Assembly: GCA_022508925.1 (NCBI GenBank)
Contig: JAFLUF010000005.1
Coordinates: forward strand, 1-38,254
Length of the DNA stretch: 38,254 nucleotides
Source of the DNA: Oscillospiraceae bacterium
Lineage (GTDB): Bacteria; Bacillota; Clostridia; Oscillospirales; Ruminococcaceae
Direction: 5' to 3'
The notes beneath the pieces were generated by a model. The model ran no database searches. It was not told the origin of the DNA and worked only from the letters and a program-made list of their open reading frames with translations. Below are positions 18,935-30,185 of the stretch, one piece after another. Each line of letters begins with the position of its first letter. Position 1 is the first letter of the stretch. A program made the position numbers and the translations under genes.

Positions 18935-19054
18935 TAAAGCCCCCGAAGGCGAGCCGCCTTTGGCAATCCGTCTCACTTGTGAAACGTTTGCCAAAGGCTG
19001 TTGCTCGATTCGTGCGATACTTCTGTATCGCACCTTCCTTAAACGGAGGCTTTA
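18935..19054. repeat. Dispersed structured intergenic element, copy A
   Basis: Near-identical in long blocks to 29511-29610; 11-bp terminal pairing TAAAGCCCCCG/CGGAGGCTTTA; internal hairpins. Confidence 0.8.
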
Positions 19055-19117: not shown

Positions 19118-19684
19118 TTAGCCGCGGCGCTTGTTTGCCGTAACTGCCACTCCGAGCGCACCGAGAACTGCCATTCCGGCTATATAGCCGAAAGAAATAC
19201 CCGTGTCGGGGTTACCGCCCGCGGCGCCTTCCATATAAGCTCCCGAGAGGCTGTCGTCGGAGCTGTCCGTGTCGTCCTCATCATCGTCATCATCGTAGTC
19301 ATCGTCGTCATCGTCTGACGATATCAGATAATCACCGTCGTAGTACTCGGTTTTATCATATCCGTAAAAGTTTTCCGAATCGTTGTAATCGGATCCGAAC
19401 GAGGAATTCGATTCATCATAATCTGTCATGCCGTGATCTGTCATGCCGTGGTCCGTGCCGGTCATTCCATATCTGTCATCCGAGCCGCCGGTAAGACCGT
19501 CCGCGATATCGCCCGCCGCGTCGCCCACGCCGTTTGCTATATCCTCAGCCACGCCCGCGGCGCCGTCAACTATATCCTCTGCCGCGCCGGCTATACCGTC
19601 AACAATGCCCTGCGCGCCTGCCGAAGCCGAAAACGCCAAAATACACAAAGCGCCTAAGACACAAGCCGTTATATTTTTAAACAT
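19118..19684 (-). CDS. Surface protein: signal peptide, four 11-aa repeats, Asp-rich tract, NPDTG C-terminal anchor
   Basis: 188 aa; signal peptide; GIVDGIAGAAE/DIVDGAAGVAE/DIANGVGDAAG/DIADGLTGGSD; DDDDDDYDDDDDEDD; NPDTGISFGYIAGMAVLGALGVAVTANKRRG. Confidence 0.85.
   Translation of the reverse strand: MFKNITACVLGALCILAFSASAGAQGIVDGIAGAAEDIVDGAAGVAEDIANGVGDAAGDIADGLTGGSDDRYGMTGTDHGMTDHGMTDYDESNSSFGSDYNDSENFYGYDKTEYYDGDYLISSDDDDDDYDDDDDEDDTDSSDDSLSGAYMEGAAGGNPDTGISFGYIAGMAVLGALGVAVTANKRRG
19271..19319. repeat. GAY trinucleotide tract encoding poly-Asp
   Basis: tcctcatcatcgtcatcatcgtagtcatcgtcgtcatcgtctgacg. Confidence 0.8.
19497..19613. repeat. 33-bp period tandem repeat within the surface-protein gene
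   Basis: CCGT-started units at 19497, 19530, 19563 and 19596 spaced exactly 33 bp. Confidence 0.8.
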
Positions 19685-21785: not shown

Positions 21786-21817
21786 AATGCGTAATTCGTA
21801 ATGCGTAATTCGTAATT
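21786..21817. repeat. Heptamer array (TGCGTAA/TTCGTAA), left arm
   Basis: aatgcgtaattcgtaatgcgtaattcgtaatt. Confidence 0.9.
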
Positions 21818-21831
21818 ATTATTGATGATAA

Positions 21832-21859
21832 AACGCGCTCGGTATTTTCCGAGCGCGTT
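21832..21859. terminator. Bidirectional terminator-like hairpin
   Basis: aacgcgctcgg TATTTT ccgagcgcgtt between convergent VWA and pcrA genes. Confidence 0.7.
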
Positions 21860-21873
21860 CTGTCATTATAGCG

Positions 21874-21904
21874 ATTACGAATTACGCATTAAGCATTACG
21901 AATT
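21874..21904. repeat. Heptamer array, right (inverted) arm, overlapping pcrA stop codon
   Basis: attacgaattacgcattaagcattacgaatt. Confidence 0.9.
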
Positions 21905-24256
21905 AATCTTCGTCATTCTTGCGTAATTTCTCATCACGGCTTTTTCGCCTATCTGATCGAAATTGACCGTGACCATCGCGTCGTTGCCCATTTGCTTTAT
22001 CTTTGTCACGACTCCCTCGCCGAACTTCGAGTGGCGCACCCTGTCGCCGACGGCGATATTTTCCGCCGCGCCCTGCGCTGCGGGCGTTTTGAGCTTTTCC
22101 GACTGCTCCTTTAAGAAGCTGTGCGCCTTGGGCTTTGAAAACGACGAAAACTCCCTTGAAAACGCGGGAATTTCCTCCGTCAGTTCGCAAAGCTCCTCGG
22201 GGATCTCACGCGCAAAGGTCGAAAGCTTGTTCGCGCTGGTTCTTCCGAAAAGCATACGGTAGTTTGTATGGGTTATGTACAGTCTCTCTTTCGCGCGGGT
22301 TATCGCGACATACGCGAGCCTGCGCTCTTCCTCCATTTCGCTCGGCTCGCCTATGCTCATCATCGACGGGAAAACATTGTCCTCTGCCGCGACCATAAAC
22401 ACCGTCGGAAACTCAAGTCCCTTTGCGCTGTGCATCGTCATAAGCGAAACGCGGTCAGACTCTCCGTCGTAGCTGTCAATATCGGAAACCAGCGCCGTCT
22501 GCTCGAGAAAATCGGGCAGAGCCGCGTCGGGCTGTTCGTTCATAAGCGAAACGGCGTTTGATTTAAGCTCCGCGATATTTTCAATGCGCGGCACACCCTC
22601 GTCGCCCTGCGCTTTAAGCATATCAATATAGCCTGTTTTCTCCGCCACCGCGTCAATAAGCTCGTCAAGCGGAAGCGTGTCTGCAAGCTCGTCAAGCTCG
22701 TCGAAAAGATTAGCCGCCGCTTTGAGAGCGTTTGCTTTTCTCGACAGCGTTTCATATTGCGCCGCGTCGCGGCAGACTTCGATCGGGTCTATGTTCAGCC
22801 CCTCCGAAACACGGATTATTTCCTCTACAGTCGCGTCGCCTATACCGCGCTTTGGCTCGTTTATGACTCTCCTGAACCTCACCGCGTCATACGGGTTGTT
22901 GATGATAGCGAGGTAGGACAAAATGTCCTTTATTTCCTTGCGGTCGTAAAAGCGCAGTCCGCCCACCATTTTGTACGGTATCTTCTGCCGTGTAAGCGCC
23001 GTTTCCACGCTTCTTGACAGCGCGTTTGAACGGTAAAGCACGGCGAAATCCGAGTATTTCGCGCCGCTTTCCACCTCTTCGGAAATTATATCGGCAATTC
23101 CCTTTGCCTCGCTCTGCTCGCTCGAATATTTTCGTATCTGAATTTTCCCGCCCTCGCCAAGCTCGCTCCAGAGCTTTTTGTCCTTGCGGCGGGAGTTGTT
23201 TTTTATGACCGCGTTTGCGGCGTTTAAGATATTTTCGGTAGAACGGTAGTTCTGCTCGAGCCTTACCACGGCGCAGTCTTTATACTGCTTTTCAAAATTG
23301 AGAATGTTTTCAATCGTCGCTCCCCTGAAGCGGTAGATAGACTGATCATCGTCGCCCACGACGCACAGATTTGCGTTTTCTCCAGCCAAGAGCGAGACTA
23401 AGCGGTATTGCGCGACGTTTGTGTCCTGATACTCGTCTACCATTATGTATTTGTAAAGATTCCTGTAATGCTCCAGAGCGTCGGGAAAGCTTTCAAACAG
23501 CTCTACCGTAAGAAAGATTATGTCGTCGAAATCAACGGCGTTTGCGTTTTTAAGCGCGCTCTGATACTCTCGGTAGACCTGCGCCACAAGCTTTTCGATA
23601 TAATCAGAGCTGTCCGCATGGTCCTTCGCGTAATCCTCAGCCGAAACAAGCCTGTCCTTAAGCGACGAAATACGGTTTTTGAAAACCTTTATGCCGACAG
23701 CCTTTTCATCTATGTTCAGGCGCTTCATGATATCCTTTAAAAGCCTTTTTGAATCATCGTCGTCGTAAATAGTAAATCCCGAGCGATAGCCGAGCTTTTC
23801 GATCTCGCGGCGCAGAATTTTTACGCACGCCGAATGAAAGGTCGAGGCGTTTATTTTGTCCGCTTCTTCTCCGAGCATCTGCGAAAGTCTTGCGCGAAGC
23901 TCTCCCGCCGCCTTGTTTGTAAACGTGATAGCTAAGATGTTCCACGGCTTTACGGGATTTACGGCGATAATTTCCGCAAGTCTTGCCGCGTTTTCGGGAG
24001 TTTTCTCCAGCTTCGGAAAATCGGCTAAAAACCGCTCCTGTTCGGGAGAAAGCCCGCGTATTTCCTCGGCGTGATATGCGTTTCCGAAAAGCGTCATATT
24101 CGCTATCCTGCTGACAAGCACGGTGGTCTTTCCGCTGCCCGCGCCCGCTATGATAAGCTGAGGTCCGTTTACGCGGAAGATAGCCTTTTTCTGCATATCG
24201 TTCGCGCGGGAAAAAAAGCTTTCAAGCGCCGCCCTTTTAAGTTCTGTGTAGTTCAA
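21896..24256 (-). CDS. pcrA: UvrD/PcrA-family ATP-dependent DNA helicase
   Basis: 786 aa; AGAGSGKTTVL, AITFTNKAAGELRARL, VDEYQDTN, VVGDDDQSIYRFRGA, TMHSAKGLEFPTVFM, RRLAYVAITRAKERL. Confidence 0.94.
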   Translation of the reverse strand: MNYTELKRAALESFFSRANDMQKKAIFRVNGPQLIIAGAGSGKTTVLVSRIANMTLFGNAYHAEEIRGLSPEQERFLADFPKLEKTPENAARLAEIIAVNPVKPWNILAITFTNKAAGELRARLSQMLGEEADKINASTFHSACVKILRREIEKLGYRSGFTIYDDDDSKRLLKDIMKRLNIDEKAVGIKVFKNRISSLKDRLVSAEDYAKDHADSSDYIEKLVAQVYREYQSALKNANAVDFDDIIFLTVELFESFPDALEHYRNLYKYIMVDEYQDTNVAQYRLVSLLAGENANLCVVGDDDQSIYRFRGATIENILNFEKQYKDCAVVRLEQNYRSTENILNAANAVIKNNSRRKDKKLWSELGEGGKIQIRKYSSEQSEAKGIADIISEEVESGAKYSDFAVLYRSNALSRSVETALTRQKIPYKMVGGLRFYDRKEIKDILSYLAIINNPYDAVRFRRVINEPKRGIGDATVEEIIRVSEGLNIDPIEVCRDAAQYETLSRKANALKAAANLFDELDELADTLPLDELIDAVAEKTGYIDMLKAQGDEGVPRIENIAELKSNAVSLMNEQPDAALPDFLEQTALVSDIDSYDGESDRVSLMTMHSAKGLEFPTVFMVAAEDNVFPSMMSIGEPSEMEEERRLAYVAITRAKERLYITHTNYRMLFGRTSANKLSTFAREIPEELCELTEEIPAFSREFSSFSKPKAHSFLKEQSEKLKTPAAQGAAENIAVGDRVRHSKFGEGVVTKIKQMGNDAMVTVNFDQIGEKAVMRNYARMTKINS

Positions 24257-25212: not shown

Positions 25213-28200
25213 TTATGCGTTGATCAGCTCGGAATATTTGTCGTTTATACTGAATTCCGCCGCGACCGATTTCCTGCTTATGCCCTCGTTTGCAAACGCC
25301 TGAGTAAGCATAAGCTTTATTCTGTTGACCTGATTTACCTCCGAGGCTCCCGGGTCGAAATCCACCGCCACGATATTGCTTTCGGGGTGCTGGCGGCGAA
25401 GCTCGCCGATAACGCCCTTTCCCGTCACATGATTTGGCAGGCACGCAAAGGGCTGCATACAAACGATGTTAGGCACGCCCTCGCGGATAAGCTCGAGCAT
25501 CTCCGCCGACAAAAACCAGCCTTCTCCCGCGATGTTTCCGTTGGAAACAATGGGAGTTACGCTTTCCATCATTTCAAAGATATCGCCGGGGCTTCCGAAT
25601 TTAGTTCCCTTTACCGCCTTGCGATAGCTGCCCTCCATAAATCTGAACGCCTTTATCACCGCGTTCTGGACGGTCCTTTTAAGCCTCGTGCTGTATAACA
25701 GCTTGTATTTAGTGACCCCGTGAGAGCAGATGTAGTAGAAAAATCCCATGAGGTCGGGCACGACGACCTCGCAGCCCTCGTTTTCGAGCAAGCCGATTAT
25801 GTCGTTGTTCGCGACAGGGTGGAATTTTACGAGAATTTCCCCGACAAGTCCGATCTTCGGCTTCTTTACATCGCGCACGGGAAACTCCGAAAACTCCTTT
25901 ACGATGTTTCTTACGTTTTCATTAAATCGCGGAAGCGAGGTAGATTTAAGCTCGTCGCGGAGATATACTCGCCATTTTTCATAAAGCGCGTTTGCCGAGC
26001 CTTTTTCAACCTCGTACGGTCTGACCTTGTACAGACACCTCTGCAAAACGTCGCCGTAAATTATACTCATAAACGCGCGTATCGCCATTCCCGCGCTGAT
26101 CTTAAAGCCGCTCTGTTTTTCAAGCCCGACAACATTCAGCGATATAAGCGGAACGTTGTCATAGCCAGCGTCCTTAAGCGCTTTTTTGAGCATTCCGACG
26201 TAGTTTGTAGCTCGGCAGGCTCCGCCCGTCTGGGTTATCATCACCGAGGTGTTTTCCAGATCGTACTTGCCGCTGTTGAGCGCGTGGATAAGCTGACCGA
26301 CGATGAGTATGGACGGATAGCACGCGTCGTTGTTTACATACTTTAATCCCTCGTCGACCACCGCCTTCGAGCAGTCGCGCAGAATTACTATGTTATATCC
26401 CGTGTGTATAAACGCCGCCTCGAGCAGATCGAAGTGTATCGGCGCCATCTGCGGGCAGAGAATGGTATGCTTTTTACGCATTTCCTCGGTAAACTCGGGC
26501 TGTCTTATGTAGCCGACGTGTCCGCGCACGGGCTTATACTGATGTCTCGCGCGCTCGTCAACCACCGAGATAAGCGAGCGCAGGCGAATCCTCGCCGCGC
26601 CGAGGTTGTTTACCTCGTCTATCTTCAGACAGGTATACAGCTTTCCGAAGCTGTGCAGAATTTCCTGTACCTCGTCGGTAGTTACCGCGTCAAGTCCGCA
26701 GCCGAAGGAGTTTAGCTGTACAAGCTCGAGACAGTCGTTTACTCCGACAACGTGTCCCGCGGCGTAAAGTCTGGTGTGATACGTCCACTGGTCGACTACG
26801 CGGATAGGTCTTACTACCTTTTCAAGATGCGCTATGCTGTCCTCTGTCAAAACCGCAAAGCCGTATCCCGAAACCATTTCGGGCAGTCCGTGGTTTATCT
26901 CGGGGTCTACATGATACGGTCTTCCCGCAAGCACTATCCCGCGTTTTCCGTTTGCTTTCAGAAATTCGAGCGTTTCCTCGCCCTTTCTGCGCATCTCCGC
27001 CTTAAACTCCCTGTCCTCGGCATACGCTTTTTCAAGCGCCGCCTTTATCTCGCCTTTGGTTATTTTAAGCTCGGGGAGACTCGCGGAAAATTCCTCAAAC
27101 AATCTTTCCGCCATTCGCTTTTCGTGGAAAATGGGCAGAAACGGATTCAAAAACTTTACGCTTGTGCGTAATTCGGGTACGGAGTTTTTGATGACCTCGC
27201 TGTATGTAGCCACAACGGGGCAGTTATAGTGGTTGTCGCCGCCGTTTTCGTTTTCCATTTCATACGGCATCGAGGGGTAGAAAATAAGCTTTACGCCGTC
27301 GTCAATAAGCGCCTGGATATGTCCGTGCGCCAATTTCGCGGGATAGCACACGCTCTCGCTCGGCATGGTTTCAATGCCCATGTCATAGATAGCTCTTGAC
27401 GACTTCGGCGAGAGCTTTACCGAAAAGCCAAGCTCGGTAAACAGCTTGTGCCAGAAGGGATAATTCTCGTACATTCCGAGTACGCGCGGAAGCCCTATCA
27501 CGCCGCGCTTTGCCTCACCCTCGGGCAGACACTCTCTATCAAACAGCAGATGATATTTATAGTCGTAAAGATTAGGCAGCTTTTCTTCAGCCGAAACATT
27601 TCCCGCTCCGCGCTCACAGCGGTTGTTGCTTATGTACCGTTTGCCGTCGGGGAATTTCGTAATTGTAAGCAGACAGTTGTTCGAGCATTTTCCGCAGCGC
27701 GCCGCGGATTTTTCGACCTTAAAGCTTTCCAAACTGTCAAGAGAAGCGATGGTGCTTCCCTTTCCGTCGTCGCGCTCAAGCGCAACAAGCGCCGAGCCGT
27801 ACGCTCCCATCAAGCCCGCCTTGTCGGGGCGAATGACATTTTTCCCGACAATAAGCTCAAACGCGCGCAAAACGCTGTCGTTCATAAACGTTCCGCCCTG
27901 AACGATTATCTTTTTGCCCATTGATTGGGTATCTCTCAGCTTTATTACCTTAAACAGCGCGTTTTTGCAGACGGAATAGGACAGACCAGCCGAGATATCC
28001 GCAACGGTCGCGCCCTCTTTCTGCGCCTGCTTTACGCGGGAGTTCATAAACACCGTACAGCGCGAGCCGAGGTCTACGGGATTTTCCGCGGAGAGTCCAA
28101 GAACGGCAAATTCCGCACTGGTCATTCCGAGAGCGTTTGCGAAATTCTCGATAAACGAGCCACACCCCGACGAGCACGCCTCGTTCAGCAGAATGCTTTC

Positions 28201-29496
28201 GATCTCGCCGTTTTTAACACGCATACATTTCATATCCTGACCGCCGATGTCGAGTATAAACTCCGCTCCCGGCAGTATCCTGTCCGCGGCTTTATAGTGA
28301 GCCATGGTCTCTATCTCACCGAAATCCGCCCCGAGCGCCGCCTTTATAAGATGCTCGCCGTAGCCCGTCGTGCAGGTTTTCGCGATATACGCGCCCTTGG
28401 GCATAAGCGGGTAAAGCTCTTTTAAAATGCCTATCACGGATTTCAAAGGGTCGCCGTGGTTGCTGTCATAATGAGAGTACAATATCTCCGCGTTTTTGCC
28501 AATAAGAACCGCCTTTGTGGTGGTAGAGCCGGCGTCAATTCCCAGATAGCACTCGCCCTCATAAGAGCCGAGGTCCGCCACGGGAATTACGGATTTAGCG
28601 TGACGAGCGCGGAAATCCCTCAGTTCTTCTTCGTTTTCAAAAAGCGGAGCAAGGCGCTCGACTTCGTTGAGCTGATTATCCGAAAGCGCGTTTCCTCTTT
28701 CGCAAAGCTCGTCTATCGGAAACTCCTCCGCCTCGTCCGAAAGCGCGCAGCCCATTGCCACGAAAAGATTGGCGTTTTCGGGGAAGATAACGTTTTCGGG
28801 CTTTAAGTCAAGCGTTTCGATAAAGCGCTGTCTCAGCTCCGAAAGATAGTGCAGGGGTCCTCCTAAAAACGCCACGTTTCCTCTTATCGGCTTTCCGCAG
28901 GCAAGCCCGCTTATGGTCTGATTTACCACCGACTGGAAAACCGACGCGGCGATGTCGCTGCGCTTTGCGCCCTCGTTAAGCAGCGGCTGAATGTCGCTTT
29001 TCGCGAAAACTCCGCAGCGCGAGGCTATCGGATAAATTGTCGTGTGGTTTTTCGACAGCTCGTTAAGTCCGCCGATATCGGTATTCAACAGCGCCGCCAT
29101 CTGGTCTACAAACGCGCCCGTGCCGCCCGCGCAGGAGCCGTTCATTCTCTGCTCGAGTCCGCCCGTAAGGTATGTAATTTTGGCGTCCTCTCCGCCAAGC
29201 TCTATCGCGACGTCGGTTTCGGGAATAAGCGCCTTTATCGCGGCAGTCCCCGCGGCGACCTCCTGAGAAAACGGAATTCCGAGCCATTTGGACACGGAAA
29301 TTCCGCCCGAGCCAGTGACCGCGACAAGCGCGCGTTCTCCCTTAAGCTCAGTGCCTACCTCGTTTAAAATATCCGAAACTGTTTTTCTTATATCGGAAAA
29401 ATGTCTCTGATAGCGGCTGAAAACAAGCTGTTTGTTCTCGTCAAGCACAGCCGCCTTTACTGTTGTCGAACCTATGTCAAGCCCTACGCGTTTCAA
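25213..29496 (-). CDS. Acyl-CoA dehydratase-activase fusion (two BadF/BadG-type ATPase modules + DUF2229/2-hydroxyacyl-CoA dehydratase-like region)
   Basis: 1427 aa; MKRVGLDIGSTTVKAAVLDE and YLGIDAGSTTTKAVLIG; SCAGGTGAF and ACSSGCGSF activator cysteine motifs; C-terminal HgdB-like cysteine-containing domains. TTG start. Confidence 0.88.
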   Translation of the reverse strand: MKRVGLDIGSTTVKAAVLDENKQLVFSRYQRHFSDIRKTVSDILNEVGTELKGERALVAVTGSGGISVSKWLGIPFSQEVAAGTAAIKALIPETDVAIELGGEDAKITYLTGGLEQRMNGSCAGGTGAFVDQMAALLNTDIGGLNELSKNHTTIYPIASRCGVFAKSDIQPLLNEGAKRSDIAASVFQSVVNQTISGLACGKPIRGNVAFLGGPLHYLSELRQRFIETLDLKPENVIFPENANLFVAMGCALSDEAEEFPIDELCERGNALSDNQLNEVERLAPLFENEEELRDFRARHAKSVIPVADLGSYEGECYLGIDAGSTTTKAVLIGKNAEILYSHYDSNHGDPLKSVIGILKELYPLMPKGAYIAKTCTTGYGEHLIKAALGADFGEIETMAHYKAADRILPGAEFILDIGGQDMKCMRVKNGEIESILLNEACSSGCGSFIENFANALGMTSAEFAVLGLSAENPVDLGSRCTVFMNSRVKQAQKEGATVADISAGLSYSVCKNALFKVIKLRDTQSMGKKIIVQGGTFMNDSVLRAFELIVGKNVIRPDKAGLMGAYGSALVALERDDGKGSTIASLDSLESFKVEKSAARCGKCSNNCLLTITKFPDGKRYISNNRCERGAGNVSAEEKLPNLYDYKYHLLFDRECLPEGEAKRGVIGLPRVLGMYENYPFWHKLFTELGFSVKLSPKSSRAIYDMGIETMPSESVCYPAKLAHGHIQALIDDGVKLIFYPSMPYEMENENGGDNHYNCPVVATYSEVIKNSVPELRTSVKFLNPFLPIFHEKRMAERLFEEFSASLPELKITKGEIKAALEKAYAEDREFKAEMRRKGEETLEFLKANGKRGIVLAGRPYHVDPEINHGLPEMVSGYGFAVLTEDSIAHLEKVVRPIRVVDQWTYHTRLYAAGHVVGVNDCLELVQLNSFGCGLDAVTTDEVQEILHSFGKLYTCLKIDEVNNLGAARIRLRSLISVVDERARHQYKPVRGHVGYIRQPEFTEEMRKKHTILCPQMAPIHFDLLEAAFIHTGYNIVILRDCSKAVVDEGLKYVNNDACYPSILIVGQLIHALNSGKYDLENTSVMITQTGGACRATNYVGMLKKALKDAGYDNVPLISLNVVGLEKQSGFKISAGMAIRAFMSIIYGDVLQRCLYKVRPYEVEKGSANALYEKWRVYLRDELKSTSLPRFNENVRNIVKEFSEFPVRDVKKPKIGLVGEILVKFHPVANNDIIGLLENEGCEVVVPDLMGFFYYICSHGVTKYKLLYSTRLKRTVQNAVIKAFRFMEGSYRKAVKGTKFGSPGDIFEMMESVTPIVSNGNIAGEGWFLSAEMLELIREGVPNIVCMQPFACLPNHVTGKGVIGELRRQHPESNIVAVDFDPGASEVNQVNRIKLMLTQAFANEGISRKSVAAEFSINDKYSELINA

Positions 29497-29510
29497 TTTA
29501 AAAAATCACT

Positions 29511-29610
29511 CCCCAAAGGCGAGCCGCCTTTGGCAGTCCGTCCCGCACGCGGAACTTCGCCAAAGACAGATGCTCGAATGATATGCTACTTCTGTATAGC
29601 ACGCTCTTTA
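29511..29610. repeat. Dispersed structured intergenic element, copy B
   Basis: AAAGGCGAGCCGCCTTTGGCA.TCCGTC...GCCAAAG...TGCTCGA...CTACTTCTGTAT.GCAC shared with 18935-19054. Confidence 0.8.
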
Positions 29611-29643
29611 AGTATGCCATTCTGTTTTTAACGTTCACTACAT

Positions 29644-30016: not shown

Positions 30017-30049
30017 AATGCGTAATGCTTAATTCGTAATTCATAATTA
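30017..30049. repeat. Heptamer array between rpsP and khpA, left arm
   Basis: aatgcgtaatgcttaattcgtaattcataatta. Confidence 0.85.
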
Positions 30050-30146
30050 TTTTTGAACAAAAAACGCAATTACACGGCGGCTGTGTGTAATTCTAAACCG
30101 TCCGACCACACAATCCGCTTTGCAAAAACGTAATGATTATAAATTT

Positions 30147-30185
30147 AATTACGCATTACGCATTACGAATTACGAATTACGAATT
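30147..30185. repeat. Heptamer array between rpsP and khpA, right (inverted) arm
   Basis: aattacgcattacgcattacgaattacgaattacgaatt. Confidence 0.9.

Follow-up and report, generated by a model that had tools for sequence, protein, structure and literature searches.

The window, a stretch of 38,254 nucleotides from the 2.18-Mb draft genome of a gut-type Oscillospiraceae bacterium (136 contigs; G000), holds two full copies of a short repeat, A and B. Copy A splits a hairpin 3' of a minus-strand open reading frame (ORF; 19118-19684, no Pfam match), and copy B lies in the 5' leader of a gene for a CoA-dehydratase activase:

18936..18945, no strand assigned: left arm of a host terminator hairpin (AAAGCCCCCG), adjoining the run that gives a U-tract on the minus strand
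18946..19042, plus strand: copy A (host AA followed by GGCG...TTAA), matched by covariance model R1 with 106 bits (E 3e-25)
19044..19053, no strand assigned: right arm of the host terminator hairpin (CGGAGGCTTT), pairing with the left arm
25213..29496, minus strand: CoA-dehydratase activase ORF with a TTG start, downstream of copy B (BcrAD_BadFG 2e-55, DUF2229 4e-91)
29509..29514, minus strand: Shine-Dalgarno-like GGGGAG of the activase gene (from the sequence and a Shine-Dalgarno/start scan)
29516..29611, plus strand: copy B, in the 5' leader of the activase gene, matched by R1 with 85 bits
29644..29672, minus strand: promoter-like TTGACT-17-TACAAT upstream of copy B (consensus scan; putative function)

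Much of this agrees with a first-pass annotation of the sequence. The blocks reported as common to A and B are present, in line with the two model matches, the promoter-like pair was located at 29672-29644 (minus strand), and both domain matches bear out the activase. That annotation, however, described a two-copy element, and what we find is a repeat family. A similarity search of the genome itself returned about 40 similar places, many of them 82-88% identical to copy A, and model R1, built on 27 copies and applied at E ≤ 0.001, gave 41 matches. Run on the relatives as well, as had been proposed, the same model recovered a dispersed family in 9 of 43 genomes of the genus, with 38, 20 and 12 matches in the sister genomes G006, G047 and G022, which together with G000 are the main carriers. 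Ten diverged copies occur in G013, in a subfamily whose interior differs while both ends are kept, and the remaining minor carriers in the genus have one or two each. Outside the genus, two copies were found in G135, the sole such genome among 199 family genomes searched. An exact pattern of the element matched the Oscillospiraceae metagenome assemblies HAN070, HAN071 and HAN073 and no viral contig. The element is about 95 bp long (ends GGCGAGCCGCC ... CTCCTTAA), its copies have unrelated genes as neighbours, and tandem copies are arranged head to tail. As a short, non-coding, dispersed repeat with insertion sites that are polymorphic between close relatives, it resembles a MITE; its ends have in common only AAGG/CCTT and a weak extension (A1 consensus). 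Among the own-genome and model matches in these draft genomes, no split copy with separated ends, as expected of an autonomous partner, was seen. Two altered copies were also noted: one site (L019) holds in G006 an internally deleted element reduced to its 5' part (L116; G006:C136:4967-5079), and a degraded minus-strand copy lies on the window's contig, outside the window (L316; G000:C82:42648-42743), in a terminator that has a plus-strand copy in G006.

The long minus-strand stem with an apical hairpin, already described for A and B, was found in the folds of both (z = -8.5 and -3.6, respectively). Stable folds of this kind, a few compensatory pairs and the placement of about a dozen copies, like B, close upstream of a Shine-Dalgarno sequence and start (by scan) would suit a conserved structured RNA, with A and B as instances of a riboswitch-like cis-regulatory leader. 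Yet two-sided changes occur in 4 of 32 pairs over 27 copies, and 437 of 500 shuffles reach as many, so that the compensatory changes claimed in the first-pass annotation are not significant, even though the apical pair 28-37 does covary (in 8 copies C-G has become U-A). Covariation in the 3' hairpin is modest, with 6.47 of 9 pairs formed within own copies versus 6.13 after swapping (99 copies; 0 of 20,000 permutations). Overall, internal covariation across the family is weak, and covariance models of Rfam gave no family match above the gathering score. Moreover, the copies sit mostly at gene ends and in both orientations, close relatives are polymorphic for their presence, and the orthologous activase leaders of G006, G022, G005, G007, G010 and G002 hold unrelated sequence in place of copy B. 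Judged from these leader sequences, copy B was inserted specifically in this lineage; it is not a conserved RNA switch. We therefore consider a conserved leader RNA largely refuted and a structured-RNA reading of the family quite improbable; of the three options first offered, the MITE/REP-like mobile repeat survives, and the conserved or co-opted leader is not supported, given the absence of B from those six leaders, the weak covariation and the unrelated neighbours. The element looks strongly folded because it lands mostly inside terminator hairpin loops.

Copy B is one of a minority of copies inserted immediately before a ribosome-binding site. Its end is one base from GGGGAG, and its flanks are unpaired (-2.2 kcal/mol), placing it outside any host hairpin; it may have a regulatory effect on the activase. 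A second placement class, in which at most about 15 nt separate the copy from the Shine-Dalgarno sequence and start codon downstream of it, was noted at loci L256, L250, L191, L192, L203, L220 and L231. Separately, a second repeat family in the relatives, with ends CAGACTGTAGAGAAAGCCCC ... GGGGCTTTATATACAGTCTG (loci L132, L133, L137-L140, L146, L147 and L117), shares some intergenic places with the element, including the activase leader.

The key to the element, missed in the first-pass annotation, is that the flanks of copy A pair with each other. The two arms join in the minimum free energy fold, with a flank duplex of -14.4 kcal/mol, and the site is also filled in G006 (L120). Copy A is clearly a terminator-loop insertion. 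Elsewhere, flanks vary from copy to copy but are complementary within each copy (e.g. ACCCCCGAAT..ATTCGGGGGCT and AACCGTCTTTTC..GAAAAGACGGTT). For 22 sites, the mean duplex energy was -15.0 kcal/mol with a copy's own flanks, a value reached in 0 of 100,000 permutations, versus -7.2 kcal/mol with swapped flanks, and the excess of own over swapped pairing recurs separately in G006, G022 and G047. Among 102 sites, a set that is not fully independent because G000 and G006 share some orthologous positions, the proportion with a flank stem at or beyond -15 kcal/mol is 40%, compared with 2% of AA points taken at random 22-150 nt from the sites. The alternative raised at first pass, random intergenic placement, does not hold: the choice of site is strongly non-random. 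At most strong sites the element begins 0-3 nt from the stem, and by a simple ORF rule most of them border directly on a gene end, with no evident bias in orientation relative to that gene. Many stems are preceded by an A-rich run and followed by a T-rich one, an arrangement typical of intrinsic terminators. The diverged subfamilies in G017, G135 and G013 retain the hairpin habit; about 40% of sites, copy B included, have no convincing flanking stem.

Sites lacking the element were sought by joined-flank searches, ten genomes per search. The hairpin is kept at the empty counterparts of L012, L018, L004, L007 and L022, and of L257, L243 and L242, for instance as ATCTCCGATGCCAATAGCGTCGGAGAT, AAAGGGTGTGAGAAGTATCACACCCTTT and GCGCTATTCCGCTTGAACGGAATGGCGC, and also TACCGCGTTCTTACAAATAAAGAGCGCGGTA and CCTCCTTATTAAAGGAGG. 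Folded as DNA, four empty sites form hairpins; the insertion point falls within the loop in three of them and where loop meets stem in the fourth (L243). The L243 flank also contains a high-copy repeat, AAAGTCTTTGGAAAATGGGTATGGGGAAAAACCTTTCTACAGAAAGGTTTTTCCCCAT (query bases 2884-2941), with many matches per genome in G000, G006 and G022. Each strong copy is closed by an outer stem, which could in principle be the element's own, diversified by compensatory mutation, rather than a host hairpin. In relatives without the element, however, that stem or one like it closes an ordinary short loop, and stem sequence and length are unrelated among copies, leaving this reading a negligible probability. 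At the junctions, the L018 site reads TGTGAGAA|GTATCACA and the L257 site CTTACAAA|TAAAGAG, and neither has a target-site duplication. The order at the best-resolved junctions is host ...AA, GGCG...TTA(A), host sequence, with an ambiguity of 1-2 nt at several sites owing to A-rich ends. A two-base AA target duplication, suspected at first, was ruled out by the empty L257 site.

Of G000 and G006, each has sites that are filled there and empty in the other, so the family has either been active since the species split or been precisely excised. Both orientations are seen directly, in two cases at one terminator. At the L008 site the element lies in opposite orientations in G000 and G006, within a diverged stem, and at the L248 site a full plus-strand copy in G006 contrasts with a degraded minus-strand copy in G000. 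In each case the two species apparently acquired the element in the same terminator independently. These cases bear on the possibility that insertion is random and that selection retains mainly terminator copies, others being harmful. Terminators are indeed tolerant, and their arms survive insertion. Nevertheless, tolerance would spread copies throughout 3' intergenic DNA, whereas most strong sites have the element 0-3 nt from the apex, and an apparently independent hit on one terminator in two species is a further difficulty; we hold selection of this kind to be improbable.

Taken together, we consider it likely that the repeat is a non-autonomous, MITE-like element of about 95 bp that targets the loops of intrinsic terminators, inserting just 3' of AA, in either orientation and with no target-site duplication. 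Because insertion leaves both terminator arms in place, a branched terminator can still form in the host, and the effect of an insertion is probably close to neutral. Since the element ends in TTAA, the end of each copy supplies a new AA, which may explain the head-to-tail tandems. Mechanistically, we propose a recombinase acting in trans that would prefer single-stranded or extruded hairpin DNA, reading the unpaired loop as its target and the element's subterminal hairpins as its ends; the two observations that suggest single-strand targeting are the loop position and the absent duplication. We suggest more tentatively, as a possibility somewhat short of even, that unpaired AA in terminator loops of any sequence is a general, nearly harmless landing site for a single-strand-specific recombinase not yet recognised.

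A search for the mobilising enzyme covered families known to act on unpaired DNA or on related targets, and identified none. Among the four main carriers, the Y1 transposase (PF01797) occurs in G006 only and not in G000, G022 or G047; it sits in an IS200-like element whose fetched 1.5-kb flanks contain no copies of the repeat. That element (L267; G006:C133:39339-39695) has terminal hairpins of its own and a sequence unrelated to the repeat. The IS91-type Y2 transposase (PF04986) was found in 1 of 14 genomes and in none of the four main carriers, the IS110/IS1111 DEDD transposase in 0 of 12 genomes, the four main carriers among them, and the group II maturase (PF08388) is absent from G000, G006, G022 and G047, with one partial match in G013. 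The distribution of Y1, IS91 Y2, IS110 and group II maturase is inconsistent with that of the carriers, and all four were rejected as mobilisers. Serine recombinases are present in 12 of 12 genomes searched, carrier or not, and so do not discriminate carriers. A mobilising enzyme may have been missed because the draft assemblies are about 90% complete. The maturase result also bears on retrotransposition, in which the repeat would be a tiny relative of the terminator-seeking group IIC introns. These introns do use intrinsic terminator motifs of unrelated sequence as insertion sites (PMC4424553), but the main carriers lack the maturase, insertion occurs within the loop and in both orientations, and 95 nt is too short for group II intron domains; retrotransposition is accordingly highly improbable in our judgement, and terminator targeting is what the introns, as ribozyme retroelements, have in common with the element.

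The likely loop-targeting element resembles MITEs and REPs and, in its missing duplication and 3' hairpin, single-strand (HUH) elements, yet departs from each of them in tested defining features. With bacterial MITEs and small repeats (RUP, BOX, SPRITE, QMITE), as portrayed in passages of one review (PMC10969869), it shares a short, non-coding, multicopy, intergenic and folding nature and, presumably, mobilisation in trans; it differs in having no clear terminal inverted repeats, no target-site duplication and a hairpin loop as target. The passages of that review on terminators and target sites make no mention of terminator loops. REP/TnpA-REP and IS200-IS605 systems (PMC8266576) likewise combine near-end hairpins, absence of duplication and a junction beside a short motif, and their single-strand activity would be common to the element too. 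Unlike REPs, it has no GTAG-type tag, is about 95 nt long with several hairpins, and is carried by genomes three of whose four main representatives lack Y1. IS1397, ISKpn1 and IS621 are also mobile DNA entering extragenic palindromes, in their case REP palindromes (PMC1525189); they target one repeated sequence, whereas the stems entered by the element all differ and have only hairpin shape and AA in common. The resemblance to IS91/Helitron-like elements is in shape only. Absence of duplication, a 3' subterminal hairpin and tandem copies are features of such elements, and all three are seen here. Searches of open-access text turned up no small DNA element described from terminator loops; the nearest cases were group IIC introns and the REP-targeting insertion sequences.

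Mobile DNA needs places where it does little harm, and loop targeting by shape would offer hundreds of harmless sites per genome; if true, it would also expose enzymes that read folded DNA in living cells. The pairs of empty and filled sites make the targeting rule directly testable. The family illustrates, in addition, how repeats that fold strongly and lie beside genes can pass for riboswitch-like RNAs. Elsewhere in the window, at 21786-21905 and 30017-30185, we also observed AATTACGCATTACG-type repeats, arranged both inverted and in tandem.
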